A stretch of 39,169 nt of DNA from a virus. Shown one piece after another: positions 1 to 16,945 of this stretch. The DNA is taken from IMG/VR virus record IMGVR_UViG_3300035670_000572, positions 1 through 39,169 of that record; one strand, given 5' to 3'. The notes beneath the pieces are model-generated. The model searched no databases. It worked only from the letters and a program-made list of their open reading frames with translations, and was not told the origin of the DNA. The position numbers were made by a program, and so were the translations under genes. Position 1 is the stretch's first letter. Each line of letters opens with the position of its first letter.

Positions 1-722
1 GGTGTAGGAGTTGGCGTTACCTCAACTTCTGTTGGTGTTGGTGTTGGTGTAGGAGTTGGTGTAGGTGTTGGGGTTAAACTTTCAACAGGTGTAGGAGTTG
101 GTGTAGGTGTAGGAGTTGGTGTCGGCGTTAAACTTTCCACCGGTGTTGGTGTTGGAGTTGGCGTAGGTGTTATCTCAACTTCTGTAGGTGTCGGCGTTGG
201 TGTAGGAGTTAAACTCTCAACAGGAGTCGGTGTAGGTGTAGGTGTTATCTCAACTTCTGTAGGAGTTGGTGTAGGTGTAGGTGTTATCTCAACTTCTGTA
301 GGAGTTGGTGTAGGTGTAGGTGTAGGAGTAGGCGTTAAACTTTCTACCGGTGTTGGCGTTGGTGTAGGAGTAGGAGTAGGTGTAGGGGTTGGTGTTAAAC
401 TCGATACTGGTGTTGGTGTAGGAGTTGGCGTAGGTGTTACCTCAACTTCTGTTGGTGTGGGGGTTGGTGTAGGGGTTGGTGTAGGAGTAGGGGTAATTAA
501 TTCTATTTCACCTTCCAAATTACAATCTAATGTTGGTGTAGGGGTTGGAGTCGGTGTTGGTGTAGGAGTTGGTGTAGGAGTTGGTGTTGGGGTCGGCGTA
601 GGAGTTGGAGTCGGCGTTGGTGTAGGTGTTGTGTCAACCACTACAATGTCACCATCCAAATTACAATCCAATGTTGGTGTTGGTGTTGGAGTAGGAGTTG
701 GTGTTGGCGTTGGAGTAGGTGT
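1..722 (-). repeat. Degenerate hexanucleotide repeat encoding (Thr-Pro)n stalk
   Basis: On the plus strand this is a run of GGTGTT/GGTGTA/GGAGTT/GGCGTT-type hexamers. In the coding (minus) frame each hexamer is ACN CCN, Thr-Pro. Third positions vary freely (ACA, ACT, ACC, ACG; CCA, CCT, CCC, CCG) while the protein stays TP, so the repeat is old or selected at protein level rather than a fresh slippage expansion. Four-residue linkers break the tract at plus positions 438, 396, 336, 285, 246, 210, 171, 129, 75 and 18. They are EVE(V/I) between two Thr, or V(E/S)SL between Pro and Thr. The tract runs off the left edge, so its full length is unknown. Confidence 0.9.
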
Positions 723-3700
723 TATTTCAACAATACTTCCGTCTATCGTACAATCTAAGTAAGGTTCATCACCACACTCGACCACCGGAACCATATCACA
801 AATATCCAACCCATCTAAATTTCTAGTTAACGATTCTATGGAATTTATTGGGTTACTATCAACACAATCTCCACAACCATTTGCATAATATTGTTGTAAA
901 TCAAAATTATCATTACTAAATTTAATGTAACTGTGCTCCAACAATAATTGTTGATTTTGATTACCGTTAAAAACAATGAAATTTTCATTGTAGATTTGTC
1001 CACCCACTACGTCATTATCTAAATTTATTAGGTAATAAATGTCAGGTGTACAATAATCTAAATTAATTGAAAGAACTTCAATAAGTTCTCCGTTTTGGTT
1101 AATTAAAAAATCACCAAATTCGTAATAATCTTTAGGATAATCACAACATGGTTCAATTTGTTCAGGTTTAATAACAAGTTCTTCAGGGTATCTTTCAGTA
1201 AAGAAATAATTTTTACTTGTACCAGTAACAATCCCATTATCATCTACTTGATTTCTAGTGTAAACTCGTAACTTTGTGGTTGGTAAAACCTCAAACACTT
1301 CATATTCTCCTGATGATGTTTCACCTGTAATTGAATTTTTCTTTATTGAACCTAAGGTCTCAATACTGGAAATGGTACTTGCCGAATAATCAAAGGTAAA
1401 TTTAAAATCATTGACTTCTCTACCGTCTTTAATTTGTTGGTAGTTATATTCATTACAATCTTTGTAATTTGCTGTTAAAATAGTTTTACCCGTTAATGTG
1501 TCACATTCCGATAATAAATCTCTTACCAATGTTGGTACACAACTCTCGGGATTATTTGTTGTTCCTGTTTTTAATAAAACATAAGAATCGGATTTTAATC
1601 CGTAGTTATATGTATTTCTATATTGTACTTTAGGTGTAATAGTATACCCCGTATTAATCAATAATGGGTAAGACTCAATATCTTCAGTTAATGGATTATC
1701 CTCATGTGGTATTTCAACATACTTTATTTGTAGACCTTCAATTTTTACTTTTAAATCACAGTTATTGGCATCAGTAAATAATAAGTCAATAACATCATTC
1801 TCTCTAACATCAGATAATAAAAATTGACATGTATTTTCAGAAGTTTGTTGTAGTATCCCTACCTCACCATAACCAGTCCCCACATTCGGTCCATATTCAC
1901 AATTTCTGTGTATGTAAATTGGCCAATTATTAATTGTGTTACCACTCTGTATTAAAAAAGTACTACCAGTTATTGTTAATGTTAAATCACTCGTCATTAT
2001 ACAATCAGTTGCCCCTGTATAAATGTAACAAACTGATTCGATGGCAATATCACTACCACAAGTTCCTGTTAAAGGTATTGTTGTTGTATCAAATTTGTAT
2101 TCGAAATATTCTAATGAACAATCATTAGGACCATATTTTATCGAATTAAATTTAATTTTTTCAATACCGTCAACGTCAACAAAAAATTCATGTTTTATTT
2201 TTGGTTTTGATATTTGAGTACAAGATGATGATTCGGTGAATGAAGTAAATGGTTCATAGTCACTAATACAACCGGCTTTATCAATTGTATCTTCTGTGTT
2301 GATGTCGTTTATTAAATTCTCTAAAGATACCACCCATAATTCTTTTATCGCGGTAACATCGGGATTTAAATAAACTTTATAATCACACACTAATGGTAAT
2401 CCATTTAATGGGTTACCAGAAACTTCACCTGAACATGTGTCGACGTTAAATGAATCAAATAACTTGGCACTAATACCTGTTACACTAGTCGTACCACTAA
2501 CAATTATATCCTCACCAACATACTCCATGTCATCAATAACGATTACAGGTGTATAGGTAATTGTTCTCGCACTTAATGGTGTTCTAAAATTATCTTCATC
2601 ACCCATTAAGGTTTCCAAATCTTCTTCTATCGCAGTTTCAAAATCAGGATATAATTGTTCTATAAATTCTTTTGGTTGACAACCAAATCTATATTGATAT
2701 TTTGGTCGACCAAAAATATTGTTTTCAATTAAATTACCACCTAACCATTGTGTCGTTGCAGGAATAAATTGTTCAATTATTTTTACCCAATATGGACTCA
2801 TTTTCTTAACAAACAGATTTAAATCTGAAAGTCGATATGGGGTAAATTGTGTACTGTTAATATAGTCTCTAAAAATATCTTCTAATCTAATATAATTTTT
2901 TCTATACTTAACTGAATGTGAATTTTTAATTTGTTGGTGTATCATTTTATCAACGAATTCCGCAAATGTAATTCCTGTTTGTGGAGTTAATTGATTATTG
3001 GTTCCAAATGATAATTCTAATTCTCTTGTCTTTCTATAAATGTCATAATCAATCGATTGTGCGGTTGACAAAAAGATGTGTATATTTTTTCTGTTAAGAA
3101 TTTTTGAGGGTTCTTCACCATATATTTCTCTTTTTCTGTTGTCAACTATCGATTCAATTTCAAATCCCGTATCCAATCCTGGTAATGTTCTATAAACATC
3201 AAAGTAATCTTCTCCATATGTAAATGGTTTACTTTTAGTTTTAATAGTTTTTGTTCTTCCAGTTAATACAGAATTTTCTGTGTCTAAAATATTTGATGAC
3301 CTATGGTCTAATGTTTTTTCATACCATCCCGCACCCTTTTCAAAAAACATATCACTCTCAACATCAAAAATAGTACGAGGGTATGATGTGTTTTCAACTA
3401 TCGGGTATTCAGTTCTATCGTATGTTATTGATGGTGTTGTTAATCCTGTGGTGTATGTGTAACTATCAACATCAAATTCTAATATTGTATAATTTTTAAC
3501 ACCCTCAATAACATCCCAAATTTCATCCTCTAAATTGAAAGATTTAGGATATGATTTTATTTCATAAACATATTCATCAATTTTAACCATTGGTTCCGGT
3601 GCACCAATAAATCTTAAAAAAAATTCAATTGCCGACTTTGTACCTTTTGATTTATATATGTAGGATAGGTTTACAAGAATTCTTCTATAAAACTCATATT

Positions 3701-4991
3701 CTGCATCTACCAAATTAGTACCCACACCAACCCCATCATATACACTTTCTTGTCTGGTATATAACATTTCGTCAATACCTTTCTCATCAAATAAATTAAC
3801 AGTTGATAATCCTAATGTGTTTGATAGGTTTTTTAATAATATATCAGGTAAGTTGTTTACACCATCATAACTTATATTTCTCATATAAGCAATGTTCTCT
3901 ATGTATTTCTTTACCTTGTCAAAACTTTGTCCGTATAATTGAAAAACAGATTCAACTCTTTTATCATCAGTATCGAATTCATAAAGTTGTGGTGAAGACA
4001 TAAATCTAACAAATAGATTAGATTTATAATTGTCAATTTCATCTGATATATCGGTTAATTCTCCGATATAGTTTTCGTAATCTAAACCAATAATTTTTAT
4101 GTTCCATTCATCTTTCGATATTGGCCATGTAACATCTACGTCAATTAATGATGTTTTAGAACCATCAAAACTATCACGTGGGACTTTAAAGGTTGCAGTA
4201 TACTTGGGGTTAGTTTCTCTATTAAGTAGTGAACTTTCTAAATCATCCAACATCCCATAAAACTCTTCAACTACACCATTATTTGGTTTAATTAAAATGT
4301 TTTCTGAATAATTTGTTGTAAAAGGTTTTCCCGAAACTTTTAACTTAATAATGTTAACATTATTTGGTTCGGTATAAAAAAGAATAGGATATTGATTACC
4401 CGAGATTTCTATCACATATTTTGTAAATGATTGGAAGAAGTCTCTTACTTTATTTTCACTATTAACTATAGTGGAACTTTCGGGTGTTTTAAAAATTACA
4501 TCGAAAGGATTGTATAATTTTGAAAAATCGACACTAAATTCTGTTGTGTTGAAGTTCAAATCATAAGTGACATCATAAGCAGTAAAACCGCTATTTGTCG
4601 ATTTAACTAAACTATCCTTATCGATTAAGATACCAGCAGGGTAGTTTTTTATTATTCTAATTAATGATGCACCGATTCTACTTTTTAAAGAACCGAAAAG
4701 AGATTTACCCGCATCGTTTTTTGATGATTTAAATTTAATTTCTTTTTTTCTTTCAGTGGTGGTTTTTTCAAATGAAGTGTTTACCTCTTCTTTTAAGTCT
4801 TCTAAAGTTAAAAAATCCGAAAACTTACCTGATTTGAAATTTTTTGTATCCTTTTCTGGTATAACCCTGTCAAGAGCAAAGCTCGTATTAGTCAATTGAC
4901 TAGTGCCGTCAGTAATTTGTCTACCAACTATACTATCACTAAATGTGTCTGCACCAGTTGCAGCTTGACTTGGAACTTTTCTTCTTGCCAT
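1..4991 (-). CDS. Large baseplate/fibre protein, tail-protein-I-like, with C-terminal Thr-Pro repeat (3' end outside window)
   Basis: An open frame starts at ATG 4991 ([13 protein letters not shown]) and runs 1663 codons to the left edge without a stop, so the C-terminus is missing. The start overlaps the stop of the upstream gene in a TAATG junction. Residues about 370-470 resemble the tail protein I / T4 gp7-like pattern: an [10 protein letters not shown] segment, then an arginine-containing helix and the KGT motif at 449-451 ([16 protein letters not shown]). This is typical of baseplate proteins that join the wedge to fibres. Residues about 800-1400 are beta-rich, with many T-G-x-T turns and Cys pairs (CGDC, PCCDYP). 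From about residue 1424 the chain is almost purely (TP)n, interrupted by acidic or hydrophobic linkers and LDC modules. Its place after gp25 and gp6 supports a baseplate role. The fibre or stalk role of the TP tail is inference. Confidence 0.85.
510..761 (-). repeat. Three Cys-containing LDC(N/T)(L/I)(D/E)G spacer modules
   Basis: At the head of the Thr-Pro tract, three near-copies of a short module alternate with TP runs: [13 protein letters not shown] (Cys 1414), [13 protein letters not shown] (Cys 1443) and [13 protein letters not shown] (Cys 1490). The Cys residues are 29 and 47 residues apart. The two inner copies are nearly identical at DNA level (CCAAATTACAATC on the plus strand at 516-528 and 657-669), which points to internal duplication. 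A strand-forming or inter-chain cross-linking role in a trimeric stalk is possible but is inference only. Confidence 0.75.
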
Positions 4992-6853: not shown

Positions 6854-7699
6854 TTAATAAACAATTTTAATACAACCATCCAATTCACATTCATCAACCC
6901 CTCGATATATTTGATAGGTGTAATCACATCGATTAATAACAACCCTATAGTACATATCCTCTTCTTCATTAACCTCATCTCCAATTACACCTTTTTGATA
7001 AAATAATACGGGATTATTTGATTTTCCAATCCTACCTTCAGTTGGTTCGGTTGTTCCTGTTGTTAAATTTTTATTTGTAAAGTCAACAATTGACCCGTCC
7101 TCAGCATTAAAAAATTTCGCAGACATCCAAAATGTACTACCTGTTAATGTTGTTTCATCAAAAGCAGAATCATCTTGAAACCAAAAAAGATACATGTTTT
7201 CTTTATTTCTATAATTTGAACCAGTGAAAACAGGTTTATATATAAACGAATTGATAGTTTCGTAAAAATATTTTTCACCTAAAACAACGGATAGATTTTT
7301 AGCAAAAACTAATCTTCTATTTGACCTATTTGGTATCTCATTATTTGGTGTTTTATAGAATTCTAACCTAAAAAAACTCTCTTTGAATTGAGCCAATAAT
7401 TGGTTATTCTCTTTAAAAGAAAGTCCTGTTGGTTCGTAATCTTGTATATATGTGTTACCAGTTAAGAAATAAAATTTAAACCAAACATCTGATTGATGTA
7501 TTGTCAAACCACTAACCGTAACATCATATGGTTTATGGATGTATCTAACAGTTTCATAATTCTCAATAGGGTTGATAATTTTATCAAGAGTTTCATTTTC
7601 AAATTCTTGCATATTATCAGACCAACCTGCGTCAGTTTTAAAGTCTTGTTCGCCGTTTAAAATGATATTCTTGTCTAAATCACTTCTTAAAATTTTCAT
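6854..7699 (-). CDS. Unknown virion-type protein, 281 aa
   Basis: I do not recognise the family. The preferred start is ATG 7699 (MKILRSDLDKN), which forms a TAATG overlap with the upstream stop, as at two other junctions in this operon. A TTG two codons upstream (7705) is possible but needs a 7-base overlap. The protein is aromatic-rich and beta-like (WFKFYFLTGNTY, MYLFWFQDDSAF). It carries two T-G-x-T motifs and a C-terminal segment with three Cys (NRCDYTYQIYRGVDECELDG, then CIKIVY). No signal peptide, membrane span or enzymatic motif is seen. Its tight coupling to the neighbours suggests a structural component made in step with them. Confidence 0.8.
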   Translation of the reverse strand: MKILRSDLDKNIILNGEQDFKTDAGWSDNMQEFENETLDKIINPIENYETVRYIHKPYDVTVSGLTIHQSDVWFKFYFLTGNTYIQDYEPTGLSFKENNQLLAQFKESFFRLEFYKTPNNEIPNRSNRRLVFAKNLSVVLGEKYFYETINSFIYKPVFTGSNYRNKENMYLFWFQDDSAFDETTLTGSTFWMSAKFFNAEDGSIVDFTNKNLTTGTTEPTEGRIGKSNNPVLFYQKGVIGDEVNEEEDMYYRVVINRCDYTYQIYRGVDECELDGCIKIVY

Positions 7700-9510
7700 T
7701 AACAATCAGTTGTGTTTTTATCTTTGAATTTAGTTATACCATCTAACTTGTTTTTATATAACTCCTCATTTCTTAAATAGAAATTAATATCATTTTTAAT
7801 ATAATGTATACCATTAATAAATGGATATTCTGTACCATAACCATCAGGGTCAATGTAACCATGGTCATATAAATCTCTCCATCTCCAAATACCGTCTTCT
7901 TCAAAATATTTTGTATTCTCAGGTAAATTTAAAATTTCGTCGGTATTTGAGCTTTCAATATACGGTGACAATTGTCTAAGTTTTATCCTATAATGTGGTT
8001 GATAAAATAACCCAACAGGTTCTCTGTTTGAATATATTAATGAAGAACTTTGGTTATGGTCAAAAATATCTTCTCTTATTGAGAATTTATGATATGATTC
8101 ACTTATTATCCTTTCTTTTAATTCACTTTCATTATATTCAACAAATGCACCCGTTAATACTGTACCGATTTGTACATCAGTTCCTCCGGTAAAACTTTCA
8201 GATTCATTACTTGTAAATGTAGTGGTTGGTATCGTGTCTTCGATTGAAGTTGTACCACTAAACTGCATATCCACCCATAAATCATGAAAACTAAACTTAT
8301 ACCCAACTTTTGGTGGATAATTAAAATATCCATTACCATTTCTAAAAATAACACTAACGTAAACATCTGTCGGTGTATAACCTAAATTATTTGTTATTCC
8401 CGATAATAAAAAAGGTTCTTTAAAATCAAACAACACCGATTCCATTCTATTTCGTTCCACAATATAATCAACATCACCTTCACTGGTTTCATTCATTATT
8501 CCTTTTTCTTCTTCCCATATTGGTGATTCGAATCCGACCTTATCTAGAATGTAGTCACTTGTTGATGTGAGTGTTTTATGTTTATGTACATAATATTGGG
8601 AGGTTGTTCCTGTTATGTCATTAATATCTAAACATCTCTTTCCAAAAACAACTGAATTAAATGTTGTACCAACAACTAAATCCGTTTTTAAAATATTAAT
8701 TACAAATTTTTCAGAACGATGAACTTCATTTCCAACACTTTCAATGTTAAATGTCCTATCTATTACATCTGTTGTTACCACCGCAGTAGTTCCTGATAAT
8801 TTATAAAAGGTACTTCCTGTTGTTGATAATGTGACATATTCACCCGCAACCATTCCATGTTCCACAGGTGATGTTAATGTATAATAATTACCATTATCAC
8901 TAACTCTAAATGGTATACCATCTTTTGCCGTGAAATTGTAAATTGTTGGTTCGGTTGAACCTGTTAGTGTATACTTAATCGGGTAATCATTATCATGGTC
9001 ATAAACGTAACTCAAATATAGATTCCAATTTTTATAAGGAGCATCCATTACTGATGTTATAGTATGACCTGTATATGTTGTACCGATTAAAGATGGTGTA
9101 TATGTAATTTCACTATTTAATGTGTCACCTGAATTCATTTGGATAACTTCTCTCAACACATCTCTTCGTAAGAAAGCAAATTCATTATAAGGTACATATC
9201 CCGTATAATCAGGATTTTCAATATCTTCATGAACCCCATAATTACTATAAAATAAATTTCTTTTTAATGGTGCATATTCAGTGACACCTTCGTATAGGTT
9301 CCTAAAAACCATTTTCAATTTACCATAAATTTTATATTTGATACTTTCGTTTCTCTCTTTATCAAATAATTGAGCAATGTCTAATATAATATCCTTATCT
9401 CCCTGACGTAATAAAGTGTCAGTCTCATCAAGTCCAATTCGAAGTGTTAAATCTTCTTCTTCAGCCTTAAAATATTTTTTAGAGGGTAGTATGATTTGTT
9501 TTTTTTCCAT
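7699..9510 (-). CDS. Unknown virion-type protein, 603 aa
   Basis: I do not recognise the family. The N-terminal 100 residues are charged and helical-looking (KYFKAEEEDLTLRIGLDETD). The central part (about 130-460) is beta-like and studded with Gly-Thr-Thr turns (TGSTEPT, SGTTAVV, TGTTSQYY, SGTTSIED). A GEYVTLSTTGS segment resembles repeats seen in phage tail surface proteins. The C-terminal 90 residues are Tyr/Asp rich (WRWRDLYDHGYIDPDGYG). Both ends are translationally coupled: the start overlaps the upstream stop (TAATG at 9510) and the stop overlaps the next start (TAATG at 7699). Position in the baseplate operon and composition suggest a virion protein. No catalytic motif is visible. Confidence 0.82.
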   Translation of the reverse strand: MEKKQIILPSKKYFKAEEEDLTLRIGLDETDTLLRQGDKDIILDIAQLFDKERNESIKYKIYGKLKMVFRNLYEGVTEYAPLKRNLFYSNYGVHEDIENPDYTGYVPYNEFAFLRRDVLREVIQMNSGDTLNSEITYTPSLIGTTYTGHTITSVMDAPYKNWNLYLSYVYDHDNDYPIKYTLTGSTEPTIYNFTAKDGIPFRVSDNGNYYTLTSPVEHGMVAGEYVTLSTTGSTFYKLSGTTAVVTTDVIDRTFNIESVGNEVHRSEKFVINILKTDLVVGTTFNSVVFGKRCLDINDITGTTSQYYVHKHKTLTSTSDYILDKVGFESPIWEEEKGIMNETSEGDVDYIVERNRMESVLFDFKEPFLLSGITNNLGYTPTDVYVSVIFRNGNGYFNYPPKVGYKFSFHDLWVDMQFSGTTSIEDTIPTTTFTSNESESFTGGTDVQIGTVLTGAFVEYNESELKERIISESYHKFSIREDIFDHNQSSSLIYSNREPVGLFYQPHYRIKLRQLSPYIESSNTDEILNLPENTKYFEEDGIWRWRDLYDHGYIDPDGYGTEYPFINGIHYIKNDINFYLRNEELYKNKLDGITKFKDKNTTDC

Positions 9511-10202
9511 TAATCTTGGATATTAAATAAATAATTTATCATACATTTTATTGCATTTCTTGATTGTTTTGTTTCAAAACAAATTCCTTCTTTCTTAACT
9601 CTTTCGTTGTATTCAAAAGCCATTCCACTAGTTAACCAATTAATTTCTTCACCCTCTTTTCTCCTAACAACACCTACTATGGCAACTTCGTCGTATCTTA
9701 ATCCGTTTTTACTTTGTTTTAGCGATTTGATTACACTTTCACTATAACCTTTTTGTTTACATTTACATGAAATAACTTTATTGTTAAGTCCGTAATTACC
9801 ATTCATTGCCAATATTTCTCTCCCATTAAGATGTTCAGAAAATTCAACAACTTTTCTATGTGAAATTCCACTAAAACAAGTTGTAAATGTAATTTTAGTA
9901 TTTTCATCCATCAATGGTTTTAATGTATTAATCAATTCTTCAAATTTTTCATTTGATTCAGTAGACTCAATTAATTTTTTACCCGTTCCATAACTTGTGA
10001 TAATAATATCTTTTAATGTGTGTGGATGTTTTTTAATAAATTTTCTAACACCTTCAATGGTTTCATCCATAGTTTTGTATGGTTTAATACCATAGGTAAA
10101 CATGTTTAAAAACTTATAAAGATTTACTTCTAAATTTTTATAATTTATATATATTACCAAATGATTTGGTTTTCTATTACTAAATAAATCTTTTATCCAC
10201 AT
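9510..10202 (-). CDS. Small protein with caspase/CHAT/DUF4347-like pattern, 230 aa
   Basis: The preferred start is ATG 10202 (MWIKDLFSNRKP), one base after the upstream stop. An in-frame ATG at 10250 would overlap that gene by 47 bases. The order of elements recalls clan CD-type alpha/beta folds (caspase, CHAT, DUF4347): a strand ending in a small loop (DIIITSYGTG, 65-74), a helix, a strand ending in Cys-x-Ser-Gly (ITFTTCFSG, Cys109), a helix, and then a strand (EILAMNGNYG). In active members the first loop usually carries the catalytic His (S-H-G-x-G); here that position is Tyr71. The enzyme may therefore be inactive, or the resemblance may be only of fold. The C-terminal half has Cys pairs (SCKCK) and no clear family. 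It is unlike its neighbours: it has no T-G-x-T turns, is Lys rich and probably cytoplasmic, which suggests an accessory gene inside the baseplate operon. Confidence 0.75.
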   Translation of the reverse strand: MWIKDLFSNRKPNHLVIYINYKNLEVNLYKFLNMFTYGIKPYKTMDETIEGVRKFIKKHPHTLKDIIITSYGTGKKLIESTESNEKFEELINTLKPLMDENTKITFTTCFSGISHRKVVEFSEHLNGREILAMNGNYGLNNKVISCKCKQKGYSESVIKSLKQSKNGLRYDEVAIVGVVRRKEGEEINWLTSGMAFEYNERVKKEGICFETKQSRNAIKCMINYLFNIQD

Positions 10203-10203
10203 A

Positions 10204-13200
10204 TTATTTCGGTCCAAAATTTTCAATAAATTTATCATATGCTGTAGCACCTTTTATTAATCCGAACGTAAAATGGAACGGTCCTCCAATCTCCATTAAA
10301 TGTCTTGTGTTACTAAAAATTGTATATTCTTTATAGTTGTCGTTACTTTTTTGTGGACCACTTCCCGTATCAATACAATCACGTATTGGTGGAAGAACAT
10401 ATCCGTCTTGGAACTCGTCACCTAAATCGTCACCTAAAGTTAGATTCATGTTTGATTTCATTTGTTGTAATCTTTGGTTAAATACCAATGACGTAAAGTG
10501 TGTTTGTGATTCACCAGCATCACCATCCTCACCAAAACCATGTCCTCTTGTATCCCACATAAAATATGGAACTTTTTGTGAGTAATCACCCAATCTACCT
10601 TTCTTATTTAAACATTGTCTTACTTGGTATCCGTTAACTTCTATTTCTGGAGTATCTGGGTTATCTTCACTATATAAAAAGTTCACACCAACAGGTCCTT
10701 TTAAATCAAAAACGTCAGTATAATCAGTATAATATGGTGATTCACTATCTTCAGTTTCTAATGGATAAATCCCAACCTGCGTATTAAAGTTTAACAATTG
10801 TGCAACATCACCATCAATTAATCCACCACCTCTTTTGTCAAACAAATCTTCAACATCTAATCTACCTCTTTCTTTTATCTCTTTAGATTGAATGATATAT
10901 TCCATTAAATCATCAATACCTTTATAAGATGTTGCACCAATACTTCTTGTTATAGAACAGTTAACATCTAATGATGAGTCAAAACAAACTTCTCTTATCC
11001 ATGTAGTTCTTGGTCCTAAATCGACAATTGTTGTTGGGTAATTAATTTCTCTTTTACGGTACAAATACCCTGAAACTAATTTACCTAAACTACTTATGTA
11101 TTCGGTGAATGACGCAACACCATCTGTTTTTGGATTTGTTATAATACTCTCTAAATTCAAATCTCTTGCAACACCATAAAAACCTTTAGTCTTACCACTA
11201 TAGATTTCATTATATGTGTTACCCTCATCATCTGTCAGTGAACCATTTGTTTGTGCCTCGTAAGCACTGTATGTTGAATTATATGGGGTCGACCTGTAGT
11301 AATAATTTACAGAACCATCAGATTCAGTTTTCTTATATAAACATTCTTTACAGAATCTATTAGCACCTCTTTTCATGAATTGGAAGAAGTATAACATACC
11401 ATTTAACCATCCATTACTAAATGTGTACGATGTAACTCCACCACACATTAACTTACCAAAAAGTTTTCTTCTTCTATATGATGAAAGTAGTTCACCTGTT
11501 TTACCCGCTAACGGTACAATAGTATAAACACCGTCTCTAAATTCTGAAAATCCGGTTAAAGTACCATCTTTAGTTAAAGTTTTGTCAACATAATATGGTC
11601 CTCTTTTTTTGACATTACCATAATACAATCCATTGTAAACACAATGTACCGTATTGTTTTCGAACGATGTTGTATATTCAAGTGGCCATTTTGTGTGTAT
11701 CGAAGCAACACCCATTAAATTCGAATAATCAAAAGGTGTCTCACAGTCTTGAACCGCATACGAGTTTAACCCTAAAACTTTGTCATTATATTCCAAATCC
11801 CATTGTCTCCACATTGGTATACCCGCCATCGGGCCCGATGTTGGTACGTGTGGGTTTGCTAACCCACCACTATATGGTTGTCTTGATTCGTACCATTCTA
11901 TAACGTCAAAATATGTATTGTATGATGTGGTTCTACTATAAATTGGTGATGCAATACCAACTAAATTCATATCACCCGATTTATTTAATTCATCTTCAAT
12001 AATGTAATCATATTTTAAACATCCACTTTCTATCTCTTCAACTGAATATTCTGTTTCTGTTACATTATCATCCGCCGTCCATATTTTTAATACTTTGATG
12101 TAACCTTGTGTTTCATGACATGTTCCCGATGCAACAGTATCAAATGGTAGGTTATACGCTGCAGATATTTCTTCACCGATTGATTGGTACAAATCATTTA
12201 TCTTCCAAGTGGATGTTCCCGAATCATAAACAATTTTAGATGTTTGACCAAATCCGGCGGAAATAAATGTACTTCCCGCACCGTATACGTCAATTTCTAA
12301 AACAAATTTTTGACGTAACCATTCACCATCATTAGGTGATGATTGACCCGAACTTGACCCATTTGGTACGAATCCATCAAATCCACCTCCTGTTGTTCTA
12401 AAGTATAAATCGTCATCTGGAATATAACCAGATGGTCCGGCACATCCATCAGTCGTTACAGTAGTGGTTAAACCCGCACCTGTAAATGTTGATGTTTGTC
12501 CTGGTTGTGCACATAACTCTAAATTTGTTACACCTGCGGCAATTGTTAATGTTCTGGTTCTACCATCACAATCAATATAATTAACACTCACACTACTAGG
12601 TGTCGAATTTGATATGGTGTATTTGTCACACGTTCCTAACGCTCTAGACGTTGAGTACTTTTCTTCTAAATAAAAATTTGTTGCAGTAGGTGTTCCTCCT
12701 GTGACTGTTGCAACGTCGATAGGGTCTGAAACGGGTATTGTTTCAGTTGAACCGTCGTCCTCAAAACAATCATAACAATCGGGATATGTTATTAATCTCA
12801 ATTTAAAAATACTTTTAAATTGATATTCCTTAGCTCTTCTAAACATTTTTGCAGATGCCCCGTTAACAATTTTGATACCAGCTAGAGATTCCGCAAAACC
12901 AAATAACGCCGCAGTTACAAACTCTTTTACAAATAAGGATATTAGTAATCCAATGTATTCGATGTAACTTAAAATTGTTAACACAAAAAAGTTAAATTTG
13001 TGATTTCTAACCGCATCATTTACAGGAAAGTAATTATTAACATTTGAACAATCTCCATCTGATGGCCATATTTCTTTAATACCAATAAATGATTCGTTTC
13101 TATCTTTTACGAAAAATCTAAATATTTTTTCAAACCCACTAGCCTTATTGTATTTGTTTAAGAATTGAGAAACTGTATAAACTCTATTATATCTAAATTG

Positions 13201-14541
13201 ATAAAAATAATCTTGTGGAACACCAATAAGACCATCTGATATTGCGTCACTATCAGTTCCTGCAACAACATTAATATCGGGATAATCATCGATGTCAGTA
13301 CTAAATGCATATGATTTTTCGTTAATCGTACCATGTCCACCTAAAAATGACGTATCATTTGTGTGGTATTCTCTGATATTTGGAACTAAAAATTTACCAG
13401 TAAACCTATTTCTTTCTCCAGTATCCTCACCTAACGAAAATCTAAAACGATAATTTCCTTTTGTTGGTATACCTTTTTTATCCTTAGATAAAATTGATTC
13501 TCCAAATTCGTTTGTTGTGTAGTACTCCAAATTCATCGGTACTCTAAAAAAGAAGGTACCATTTTCATCGATAGTACTGTCTATTGGAAATCTTTCAAGT
13601 ATTGGTCTATTAATTAATGGTAAACCATTATTGTCTTTTTCATATTCACCAGTAAATCTAATCGCTTCAATATCTCCTTTAAATGTCGTTAGACGACATT
13701 TTTCGCCCATTTGATTATCGACGTTACAATTAACTCTTAACGCATCTTTACCTGAATCAGATACCGAACCACCCATCATTAACGCATAAGGTTGGATTCT
13801 TACTCCTCTTGTACCTAAATCAAAATCTGTTCTTGTAATTCCAATCTCACATAAATCTTCATTACCCCAAAATGGATAAACTTCAATTGTCTTATCAAAG
13901 GAAATGATTTGAGGTAACGTGTCGAGATTTTCAGACGACATGTAGGTATATTTGTTCTCAAATTTTTCTTCAGAAATACCTTCATATATGAAATCATACG
14001 GTACTAATGATTGACAACCAATATCTGATAAATCTACATCTACGTGTATTGTTTGACTTCCTAGTGGTACCCCCCAAATCATGAAGTCACCGGATTCGTT
14101 CGTTTTAACAGTATACTTGTAATATTTTTCAAATATTTCCAAATATTCTTCTCTTGTTAAAATATCCTCTTGGTCTATAAATGTCCCCGTCGGTGAATGA
14201 CCGCTGTGTTGTTGTCTTGATGGTAATAGATTATACTTATACCCATCTTCATTTCTATCTGAAATTGATGTATACGGATATAATTGTGAAATTAATGGGT
14301 CCAATTGGTCGTTCTCATCAATCGGAATAAAAATAGAAACTCTCGCATTTGGAATACCGAAACCGTCATTAACACTGATTCTACCGACCACAACACCGTA
14401 ATCCGCACAAAGAGAGGTGTACACTTCTTTTTGTGTAAATTTTAAGGATAAGATTTCTAATAAATCAAAATCCTGTTTTAACTCAACTCGAACTAGTTGG
14501 TCTTTACCTAAATTTGTTGATATTCTATGTTTTTGCATCAT
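10204..14541 (-). CDS. Very large virion protein with carboxypeptidase-regulatory-like domain, 1445 aa
   Basis: The start is ATG 14541 (MMQKHRIS); the second ATG at 14538 is equally plausible. Residues about 47-172 look like a split carboxypeptidase-regulatory/CNA-B-type beta-sandwich: VVVGRISVNDGFGIPNARVSI, a long insertion, then TNESGDFMIWGVPLGSQTIHV. A hydrophobic stretch near residues 515-560 (FFVLTILSYIEYIGLLISLF and onward) resembles membrane spans and is unusual in a virion protein. After about residue 600 the chain is Ser/Thr/Gly rich with Cys pairs (DCYDCF, CKECL). The C-terminal region again contains folded, Tyr-rich segments. The gene lies directly downstream of gp6 and upstream of the caspase-like gene. 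I do not recognise a named family; a baseplate or host-contact protein is likely from position and size. Confidence 0.82.
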   Translation of the reverse strand: MMQKHRISTNLGKDQLVRVELKQDFDLLEILSLKFTQKEVYTSLCADYGVVVGRISVNDGFGIPNARVSIFIPIDENDQLDPLISQLYPYTSISDRNEDGYKYNLLPSRQQHSGHSPTGTFIDQEDILTREEYLEIFEKYYKYTVKTNESGDFMIWGVPLGSQTIHVDVDLSDIGCQSLVPYDFIYEGISEEKFENKYTYMSSENLDTLPQIISFDKTIEVYPFWGNEDLCEIGITRTDFDLGTRGVRIQPYALMMGGSVSDSGKDALRVNCNVDNQMGEKCRLTTFKGDIEAIRFTGEYEKDNNGLPLINRPILERFPIDSTIDENGTFFFRVPMNLEYYTTNEFGESILSKDKKGIPTKGNYRFRFSLGEDTGERNRFTGKFLVPNIREYHTNDTSFLGGHGTINEKSYAFSTDIDDYPDINVVAGTDSDAISDGLIGVPQDYFYQFRYNRVYTVSQFLNKYNKASGFEKIFRFFVKDRNESFIGIKEIWPSDGDCSNVNNYFPVNDAVRNHKFNFFVLTILSYIEYIGLLISLFVKEFVTAALFGFAESLAGIKIVNGASAKMFRRAKEYQFKSIFKLRLITYPDCYDCFEDDGSTETIPVSDPIDVATVTGGTPTATNFYLEEKYSTSRALGTCDKYTISNSTPSSVSVNYIDCDGRTRTLTIAAGVTNLELCAQPGQTSTFTGAGLTTTVTTDGCAGPSGYIPDDDLYFRTTGGGFDGFVPNGSSSGQSSPNDGEWLRQKFVLEIDVYGAGSTFISAGFGQTSKIVYDSGTSTWKINDLYQSIGEEISAAYNLPFDTVASGTCHETQGYIKVLKIWTADDNVTETEYSVEEIESGCLKYDYIIEDELNKSGDMNLVGIASPIYSRTTSYNTYFDVIEWYESRQPYSGGLANPHVPTSGPMAGIPMWRQWDLEYNDKVLGLNSYAVQDCETPFDYSNLMGVASIHTKWPLEYTTSFENNTVHCVYNGLYYGNVKKRGPYYVDKTLTKDGTLTGFSEFRDGVYTIVPLAGKTGELLSSYRRRKLFGKLMCGGVTSYTFSNGWLNGMLYFFQFMKRGANRFCKECLYKKTESDGSVNYYYRSTPYNSTYSAYEAQTNGSLTDDEGNTYNEIYSGKTKGFYGVARDLNLESIITNPKTDGVASFTEYISSLGKLVSGYLYRKREINYPTTIVDLGPRTTWIREVCFDSSLDVNCSITRSIGATSYKGIDDLMEYIIQSKEIKERGRLDVEDLFDKRGGGLIDGDVAQLLNFNTQVGIYPLETEDSESPYYTDYTDVFDLKGPVGVNFLYSEDNPDTPEIEVNGYQVRQCLNKKGRLGDYSQKVPYFMWDTRGHGFGEDGDAGESQTHFTSLVFNQRLQQMKSNMNLTLGDDLGDEFQDGYVLPPIRDCIDTGSGPQKSNDNYKEYTIFSNTRHLMEIGGPFHFTFGLIKGATAYDKFIENFGPK

Positions 14542-14595: not shown

Positions 14596-16428
14596 TTAGT
14601 ATGTAGTCGATATTAGTGGTTTAACCCTTACTTTAATATCTTTATTAGGGAATCTAACTTGGAAAATTTGATTGGACTTCATAAAAACTGTGGTATCAGA
14701 TTGTCTAATTTCCTTAGTTGTGTTGTCAACATACTCTTGAACAACTTCATTTGTTGAGTACTCACCTCCCACTTTATTAAAGACTCTTATGTCTACCACA
14801 TTCACCACTCCTGAAACCCCACCAATTTCTTTCTGTAGTTCACCTACAAATAGAGGGTCTCCCATTTTTCTTTTTTCAATTGCAAAGTATTCAACAACCT
14901 TTTGTATTGTTGATTTAACAATGTCAGTTTCCACTTCATTTCTATCACCAATAATGTCAATCTCTAAACCTAAATCAATAACTTCACCAGTTTGAATTTC
15001 TAAATAATCGTTTAACATTCTATATTCAGAAAGATATTCAATAATATTGTTTTTTAATGTGTTTGAAACAACGCTAGTTAAATTACCTTGGTCGTCATAA
15101 GATAATAATTTTATTTTAACTTTATTATCTTCTTCCATAACATTCACCTTAGCCGGTGCACCAAAAGTTGCTGGCATGTTTTCAATTACGGATTTATAAT
15201 CGTTTAATGTTACCGCTCTATTTTGTGCTGAAAAATTATAAGAAATCATGTTTCTAATTTCTTCAATTGTTGGTTGGTCTGCTCCACCAACTGCAGGTGT
15301 AACGTTCGTAACTCTTAATGATTGTATTACCTGAGTGTTTACGTTCGCAACAGGACCATTAACATTAAATTCAACGTTATCCACACTTGTTATTACGTTA
15401 ACACCTAAATTTGTATCTTTTCCACCACCAATTCTATATTTCACAAATAATGTACTGTTTGATTTTGGTATTGCACCTAACGATAAATTATTTAGGTACG
15501 ACCCTAAACTAACTTTCATAGTACCATTAACAAAATTATCCAAATTGTCTAGTGGGTTTACATTTCCCGAACCAAATGTCATTGAAAAATATCCTTCGGG
15601 TGTAACTTCGGTAATAAACTTATTTGTTATAGGTATGTATTTTCCAGGTTTAAAGTTTTCTTTATCAGATACTCTAGTTGGGTCTGGAATGAATACTTTA
15701 TCCTGTACTAAAGATTTAACTTCGTACCATTTATTTGTTGTTGACGTAAATTCAGATGAAGTTGGGTTACCACCGAAACTCGTACCCTCTTTATGTATTA
15801 CTGACGTAATACCTAACACATTTTGTTCAGGTAAGAATAATTTTAAAAATGGTTTTTGGTCTAATTCCGTTATAACCCTTCTATAAATTCTTGTGACACC
15901 GTTTATAACCGCCTCTCTTTTAGTTATTGTATATGAAATCAATTTATTGTTACCGTCAAAATTTGGTATCTTTAAACGATTTGGTTCTCCTTTACTATTA
16001 AAAGGGTTTGAGAAATCTATATCTTCTATTGTTTCAAATATTTGACCTCCTCCCGATATTTGAGCTCCTGCTCTTAATAATCCAAGATATTCGGTTTTTT
16101 CTTTATCACCACTAACGGGTACATTTATTGAAAAGTCACATAACGCAACTGAGGGTCTATTACCCGGTATTCTTAAACCATATGTTTTTGCAATATGAAA
16201 TAAAGATTGTCTTTGTTGAGCGAAATCCAACATGGTTTCTTGCCAAACTCTATCAATATGAAAGTGTAAATTATCCGCAACCGCAGCGTTTAAATCCAAT
16301 AACACCGAAAATATCGATGCATCATTAGTATTTTTTACTAAATCGGGATAATAATCATTTGTTAGGTTTACTAATTCTTGTCTTAACCCAGCAAAATCTC
16401 TTGTTGCGTATGATATTTTCTTTGCCAT
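14596..16428 (-). CDS. 6: Baseplate wedge protein gp6 (baseplate J-like)
   Basis: This 610-aa protein builds the wedge part of the contractile-tail baseplate, forming the inner iris that couples baseplate change to sheath contraction. Recognisable features are the N-terminal YATRDFAGLRQELVNLTNDYYPDL segment (split in T4-like gp6/BcepMu J proteins into a helix plus the loop after it), DNLHFHIDRVWQETMLDFA, and AKTYGLRIPGNRPS. The C-terminal half has the baseplate-J pattern NRAVTLNDYKSVIENMPA near residues 395-412 and the late strand-helix unit ending in GGVSGVVNVVDIRVF. The length is close to T4 gp6 (about 660 aa). The start is one base after the gp25-like stop (TAAGATG), so the pair is co-translated. 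Assignment is confident at family level. Confidence 0.92.
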   Translation of the reverse strand: MAKKISYATRDFAGLRQELVNLTNDYYPDLVKNTNDASIFSVLLDLNAAVADNLHFHIDRVWQETMLDFAQQRQSLFHIAKTYGLRIPGNRPSVALCDFSINVPVSGDKEKTEYLGLLRAGAQISGGGQIFETIEDIDFSNPFNSKGEPNRLKIPNFDGNNKLISYTITKREAVINGVTRIYRRVITELDQKPFLKLFLPEQNVLGITSVIHKEGTSFGGNPTSSEFTSTTNKWYEVKSLVQDKVFIPDPTRVSDKENFKPGKYIPITNKFITEVTPEGYFSMTFGSGNVNPLDNLDNFVNGTMKVSLGSYLNNLSLGAIPKSNSTLFVKYRIGGGKDTNLGVNVITSVDNVEFNVNGPVANVNTQVIQSLRVTNVTPAVGGADQPTIEEIRNMISYNFSAQNRAVTLNDYKSVIENMPATFGAPAKVNVMEEDNKVKIKLLSYDDQGNLTSVVSNTLKNNIIEYLSEYRMLNDYLEIQTGEVIDLGLEIDIIGDRNEVETDIVKSTIQKVVEYFAIEKRKMGDPLFVGELQKEIGGVSGVVNVVDIRVFNKVGGEYSTNEVVQEYVDNTTKEIRQSDTTVFMKSNQIFQVRFPNKDIKVRVKPLISTTY

Positions 16429-16429
16429 C

Positions 16430-16882
16430 TTATATGTTTATAATTATAAAATCCGAAGATGAAAATGCTCCGTTATTTACTGTGTAGTCTATTTTTACTT
16501 TTGCAGTGTATGGTTTTGAACTTGCGTCGGAAACCCTAAATAATCTTTCATCCTCATCTTGTGAGTATAACCTATCTTCGTCAGGGTCTTGGTCTGCTGG
16601 CATTATATTAATAGAATTAATATCTAAATTTGGAATGTATTTTCTCACACCTTCTCTTATTTCCTCTTCTATTAAATTAAAACTTATTACGTCATTTTGT
16701 TCAAAAATGTATTCATATAATCTTGTACCAAAATCAGGTAAAAAATACCTACTTCCCTTTCTCGTCAATAATAAATGAATCAAATTCGCACGAATTTCTC
16801 TTTCGGGTGATTCGGTCATTTTTATAAAATCACCTTTCACACTAGTTCTAAAAGGAAAGTCTATACCATACGTTGCTGCCAT
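16430..16882 (-). CDS. 25: Baseplate wedge protein gp25-like (GPW/gp25 family)
   Basis: This 150-aa protein is a wedge component that anchors the sheath end to the baseplate. It shows the GPW_gp25 domain: an N-terminal IDFPFRTSVKGDF segment, ESPEREIRANLIHLLLTRKGSR, then the family hallmark FLPDFGTRLYEYIFEQND (about 47-64) with the invariant acidic residue-Phe-Gly-x-x-Leu arrangement, and EEEIREGVRKYIPNL before the last strands. Length is near T4 gp25 (132 aa), with an extra acidic loop (DQDPDEDRLYSQDEDE, about 97-112). It is the first gene after the nrdA terminator and is followed at once by gp6, the same pairing as in many contractile tails. Confidence 0.92.
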   Translation of the reverse strand: MAATYGIDFPFRTSVKGDFIKMTESPEREIRANLIHLLLTRKGSRYFLPDFGTRLYEYIFEQNDVISFNLIEEEIREGVRKYIPNLDINSINIMPADQDPDEDRLYSQDEDERLFRVSDASSKPYTAKVKIDYTVNNGAFSSSDFIIINI

Positions 16883-16908: not shown

Positions 16909-16945
16909 TGGTAATAAATAAAAAATCCCGACAAAAGTCGGGATT
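16909..16945 (-). terminator. Rho-independent terminator after nrdA
   Basis: In coding sense, a perfect 9-bp stem AATCCCGAC / GTCGGGATT (16937-16945 with 16924-16932) closes a TTTT loop and is followed by a T-rich run (TTTTTATTTATT). It ends the nrdB-nrdA transcript and separates it from the gp25-gp6 module. Confidence 0.88.

Follow-up and report, generated by a model that had tools for sequence, protein, structure and literature searches.

What does a small protein resembling a caspase do inside the baseplate operon of a phage? Bacteria are known to use caspase-like proteins as effectors of their immunity against phages, and giant viruses carry such proteins too. A conserved caspase-fold family without the catalytic histidine, encoded among the baseplate genes of large tailed phages, would represent a new place for this fold and probably a new use. 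We addressed this question in a viral stretch of 39,169 nucleotides (IMG/VR record IMGVR_UViG_3300035670_000572), which we call the window. The original prediction, read from the sequence, proposed a caspase/CHAT/DUF4347-like protein at positions 9510-10202.

A basic protein gene between two baseplate genes

The predicted open reading frame was found on the minus strand (9510..10202). It encodes 230 amino acids plus a stop, with the ATG at 10202 and the TAA at 9510-9512, and is documented by the reading frame, by homologues and by AlphaFold models. The frame is preserved in the homologues, which are 36-77% identical, and the dN/dS values are mostly about 0.1-0.3 (range 0.08-0.29, several pairs with high dS). 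It means that this is a real gene under purifying selection. The three motifs are numbered as first given: SYGTG at residues 70-74 (9981..9995, minus strand), TTCFSG at 107-112 (9867..9884, minus strand) and AMNGNYG at 133-139. The assignment of Cys109 and Tyr71 is also right.

The protein was said to differ in composition from its neighbours, and it does. Lysine reaches 12.2%, against 3.6-6.7% in the operon, and the TGxT pattern is absent. The net charge is +10, while every operon neighbour is negative. The GC content of the gene is 25.5%, compared with 29-34% for the neighbours.

The surrounding operon is a T4-like baseplate operon on the minus strand. Its order is the wedge subunit gp25 (16430..16882), a gp6/Baseplate_J-like wedge subunit (14596..16428), a conserved virion-type protein of 1445 amino acids that we call gBIG (10204..14541), the caspase-fold gene, a 603-amino-acid protein that we call g7699 (7699..9510), and further tail-type genes. 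The virion-gene flanks that had been described are thus present on both sides. A gap of one nucleotide separates the gBIG stop from the ATG of the caspase-fold gene, whose own stop shares one nucleotide with the ATG of g7699 (TAATG). These junctions make translational coupling probable. A terminator-like hairpin lies at 16924-16945, between NrdA and gp25 and on the operon strand; it is a possible upstream boundary of the operon. Elsewhere in the window, a minus-strand gene at 3-4991 (at least 1663 amino acids) carries a long C-terminal (TP)n repeat over positions 1-760, running off the window edge. The repeat has VESL/EVEI-type interruptions, and its antisense appears as a Gly-Val open reading frame.

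The gBIG protein has no Pfam or PHROG family match. With an alignment as the query, over 500 relatives were found in IMG/VR. It is therefore a widespread, unnamed protein of the baseplate region. In contig L226 the gBIG frame seems broken near its 3' end (11663-11867), yet the sequence matches up to residue 1444. This appears to be a frameshift or an assembly error.

The window NrdA is closest to sequences of Saprospiraceae and other Bacteroidota. Among named phages, those of Flavobacterium and Microcystis are the closest by gp6. Judging from these sequences, the carriers, which are large, uncultured tailed phages, likely have a Bacteroidota host.

Homologues and conserved residues

As a single query, the window protein had no match in Pfam, in PHROGs, in a tblastn search of phages or in a single-sequence scan of viral contigs. 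The gBIG query yielded 43 loci, and caspase-fold homologues were found there at the same place. An alignment query placed the family in 35 viral contigs. Later scans showed no member outside the gBIG/g7699 setting. Likewise, profile searches of PDB sequences and plasmids gave no relatives. None was seen among about 85,000 prokaryotes (one genome per species) in a pattern-based scan, which detects a relative only if it contains the peptide patterns that were selected. The matches of L073 to jumbo coliphages were due to chance (E 7). The family is new and restricted to phages, and its predicted fold is of a known kind.

The family alignment consists of 22 distinct sequences. Cys109, whose loss among homologues would have spoken against the original prediction, is invariant in all of them. 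The invariant residues also include G72, G74, T108, G112, C146, C148, D171, W189, C208 and N223. Among the polar residues away from the two loops, D171, R181, E185, W189 and N223 are strongly conserved. C146 and C148 form a CKC motif (9759..9767, minus strand). Together with C208 (9579..9581, minus strand), they could possibly constitute a metal site or a redox pair.

Position 71, where a histidine is usual, had been read as tyrosine. In the alignment it is tyrosine in 15 sequences, phenylalanine in 6 and asparagine in 1, and never histidine. Position 73 presents T, S, E, R, K, D or V, again never histidine in the 22 sequences. The only near-invariant histidine is His14 (21/22). We rejected it as a replacement base: it sits where the first strand begins and is an asparagine in L013. 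His115 was also rejected, with histidine in only 10 of the 22 homologues. A search of the longest related records found no paralogue with the canonical histidine.

Predicted fold

We predicted the structure of two members with AlphaFold. The window protein, with 13 alignment rows, gave a pLDDT of 82.5, and the homologue L034, with 22 rows, gave 90.1. The C11 proteases were the top VIA-align matches of both models (Z 6.9/6.7/6.0 over 175 residues for the window protein; 7.7/7.5/7.1 over 179-183 residues for L034), and all matches stay under Z 8, the level below which VIA-align warns that a common arrangement may be reflected. For L034, the rows after the C11 proteases were MALT1, SAVED-CHAT, caspases, legumain, GPI transamidase and the N-terminal part of Raptor. 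About 42 of the best 50 rows for this model are clan CD or caspase-like, a count that includes the Raptor N-terminal domain, which we take to be caspase-like. Foldseek gave best E-values of 0.0088 and 0.0018 for the two models, weak values alone. No single match from either program decides the fold. In the viral library it found weak matches only, some of them to giant-virus caspases and clostripains.

The order of the elements in the L034 model is a strand at 65-70 followed by SYGTG, a strand at 103-108 followed by TTCFSG, and a strand at 130-133 next to the AMNGNYG region. The SYGTG loop stands at the place of the catalytic histidine loop, and the TTCFSG loop at that of the catalytic cysteine. 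In clan CD, the fourth core strand leads into a C-x-x-G loop that holds the cysteine, and here C109 and G112 are present in 22/22 homologues. The catalytic histidine of the clan CD peptidases, which belongs to an HG loop following the third core strand, is absent from all 22.

The sequence profiles say less about the family. We saw no convincing match for the caspase-fold protein in Pfam, NCBIfam, PADLOC or PHROG, and no match above the cut-off for C11, C14, CHAT, DUF4347 or C13. With hhalign, the P values were 0.0049 for C14 (PF00656), 0.37 for C11 (PF03415), 0.7 for CHAT (PF12770) and 0.84 for DUF4347 (PF14252). The C14 score beats 60 of 60 column shuffles, over a short core. The alignments with C11, CHAT and DUF4347 do not beat shuffled profiles, so we make no family assignment from sequence. 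When the profile alignments are forced, C109 falls on the family cysteine in C14, C11, CHAT and DUF4347. Residue 71 falls at or near the catalytic histidine in three of these alignments, and residue 73 takes that place in C14. The L034 protein matches Pfam C13 (PF01650) with 14.4 bits, under the cut-off of 22.8, exactly over both loops.

The resemblance could be that of a generic alpha/beta, Rossmann-like arrangement, and the protein could belong to another fold class. The Z values below 8 would agree with this, as would the dehydroquinases, iGluR amino-terminal domains and pyridoxal kinases that are also among the matches, and the profile comparisons, which are not significant except weakly for C14. 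Nevertheless, with the better model the clan CD matches gain in Z-score and take up a larger share of the rows. The GxG after strand 65-70 and the TCxxG after strand 103-108 sit at the clan CD histidine and cysteine loops, and the sub-threshold C13 match spans the two. We consider another fold class improbable. According to the models, the 230-amino-acid protein most likely folds like a caspase-type (clan CD) protease. The caspase-like part of the original prediction thus holds in both AlphaFold models, as a prediction with Z below 8. On the other hand, the sequence profiles do not bear out membership in CHAT, DUF4347 or C14.

Gain, duplication and allele exchange

Every member of the clade whose contig extends over both neighbours carries the gene between gBIG and g7699. 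In L017 and L035 the gene is absent, and gBIG and g7699 are joined three bases apart. In 31 more distant related phages they are also joined directly, without the gene. Immutovirus and Mel-JY01 lack it at this place, and no copy exists at any position of the three outgroup records of 199-311 kb. The caspase-fold gene is accessory.

L017 is the sister of the gene-bearing clade on the gBIG tree (a quick tree, SH-aLRT 98-99, with a long branch). Considering that this sister and the outgroups lack the gene, a single gain is the simplest account. Ancestral presence followed by loss in L017 is a less simple history. No loss was observed inside the gene-bearing clade on the gBIG tree. The apparent absence in L006, L014, L016, L030, L032, L210 and L011 is a truncation of the contigs. 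L034, labelled on this tree as lacking the gene, does carry it.

The gene is also found in two copies. L024-type phages, in at least seven contigs, have two strongly diverged tandem copies (12607-13314 and 13319-14020 in L024).

The pairwise identity of the caspase-fold protein correlates with that of gBIG at r 0.18, compared with 0.61 for g7699. The pair L013 and L036 presents 93% identity in gBIG and 75% in g7699, against 42% in the caspase-fold protein. Their genes (L013 12319-13020, L036 12319-12996) are highly diverged alleles beside near-identical gBIG. The DNA identity falls to a minimum of ~50% over the gene, with about 75-80% on either side. The identity hardly tracks gBIG and dips over the gene, which indicates an exchange of alleles that does not involve the flanking genes. 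In the same pair, gBIG contains another breakpoint near 11,800.

Proposed function

Our preferred reading is a clan CD-like pseudopeptidase that keeps the cysteine, lacks the histidine and binds a partner, encoded by an accessory gene gained once into the baseplate operon. We give it a probability of roughly 0.55. Clan CD peptidases work by a His-Cys dyad (PMC12445089). This dyad is impossible here, because the family keeps the cysteine and never has the histidine. Bacterial pseudo-orthocaspases are known with YS, YA, FS, YN or QC instead of the dyad; most have lost the cysteine too, and QC keeps it (PMC6426788). The impossible dyad and the known replacements of histidine by tyrosine or phenylalanine favour a binding role. 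With the nucleophile-position cysteine kept and no catalytic histidine, the protein would bind rather than cleave by His-Cys proteolysis.

The strict place in the operon suggests co-production with the tail. Located between two baseplate genes, the product would be made together with the baseplate proteins, presumably late. Since the alleles are exchanged independently of gBIG, we would guess, to begin with, that the partner is a variable protein of the host or of a competitor, and not gBIG itself.

An accessory structural or assembly protein of the baseplate or tail, built on a caspase-like scaffold with structural or metal-binding cysteines, is possible, although we find it doubtful. The gene has one operon position in every carrier, with coupling on both sides, no loss in the clade and purifying selection, and the three further invariant cysteines (CxC...C) would suit such a role. 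However, orthologous baseplate modules exist without the gene, and a single gain into an otherwise complete module argues against an essential structural part. The protein is basic and lysine-rich, in contrast with the acidic virion proteins, and its divergence barely follows that of gBIG. Its presence brings no new gBIG segment; a segment co-occurring with the gene, which might be a substrate, was looked for and none was found.

The cysteine itself raises another explanation. An invariant cysteine in a TTCxxG loop is unexpected for a merely decayed site, and this residue might act as a nucleophile together with a different base. An active clan CD-type cysteine protease or acyl-transfer enzyme, with Cys109 activated without the canonical histidine, would account for the invariance of T108, C109 and G112, of G72 and G74 in the opposite loop, and for the strong conservation of the polar residues D171, R181, E185, W189 and N223. 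Nevertheless, the use of a His-Cys dyad by the clan (PMC12445089) and the lack of histidine at 71 and 73 in 22 homologues make this quite unlikely. His14 offers no way out, being at the opposite end of the parallel sheet. The protein might instead be a decoy against host defence, binding or poisoning caspase-like effectors of abortive infection (CHAT or C14), but this is unlikely as well. Such a decoy would fit a caspase-like fold without a dyad in an accessory, allele-swapped gene with divergent tandem copies. CHAT occurs in 32 and C14 in 19 of 61 genomes of a Bacteroidota phylum sample, and bacterial gasdermins are activated against phages by caspase-like proteases (PMC9612521). However, the operon position implies that the gene is expressed late for a decoy, except if the protein is packaged. 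The absence of loss in the clade is unusual for anti-defence genes, and the dN/dS values are low. A bolder combination seems rather unlikely: a phage-specific caspase-fold family that either cleaves with its cysteine and a base other than histidine, or supplies tail-coupled CHAT/caspase decoys whose alleles match the host effectors.

The gene apparently entered these phages a single time, close relatives swap it, and sister phages do without it; they therefore offer natural comparisons for what a phage gains from a pseudo-caspase.

Comparison with known systems

The C11 proteases (clostripain; 6n9j, 6nag, 6mzo) are the best structural match, over ~180 residues with Z up to 7.7 (below 8), and have an equivalent cysteine loop. 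The phage protein differs from them in lacking the histidine, in its smaller size (230 amino acids), in having no Pfam C11 match and in its location in a phage operon. The C13 proteases (legumain) are alike in structure, with Z about 5 (also below 8), and in the match of L034 over two loops. However, this match is under the cut-off, and the histidine is again missing from the phage protein.

CHAT proteins (SAVED-CHAT 8tl0; Craspase TPR-CHAT) share the clan CD fold and the C-x-x-G loop, with Z about 5.5, likewise under 8. In contrast, the phage protein has no histidine, no TPR or SAVED domains and no profile match. The forced alignment with DUF4347 puts SYG on SHG and also aligns the cysteine loop and the next helix-strand, with a P value that is not significant. 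DUF4347 keeps the histidine and sits in large proteins.

Finally, the pseudo-orthocaspases (C14 p20) also present tyrosine or phenylalanine for the catalytic histidine, and their QC variants keep the cysteine (PMC6426788). They are cellular and recognised by the C14 profile. The family described here combines Y, F or N with a conserved cysteine, is carried by phages and lies below profile recognition.
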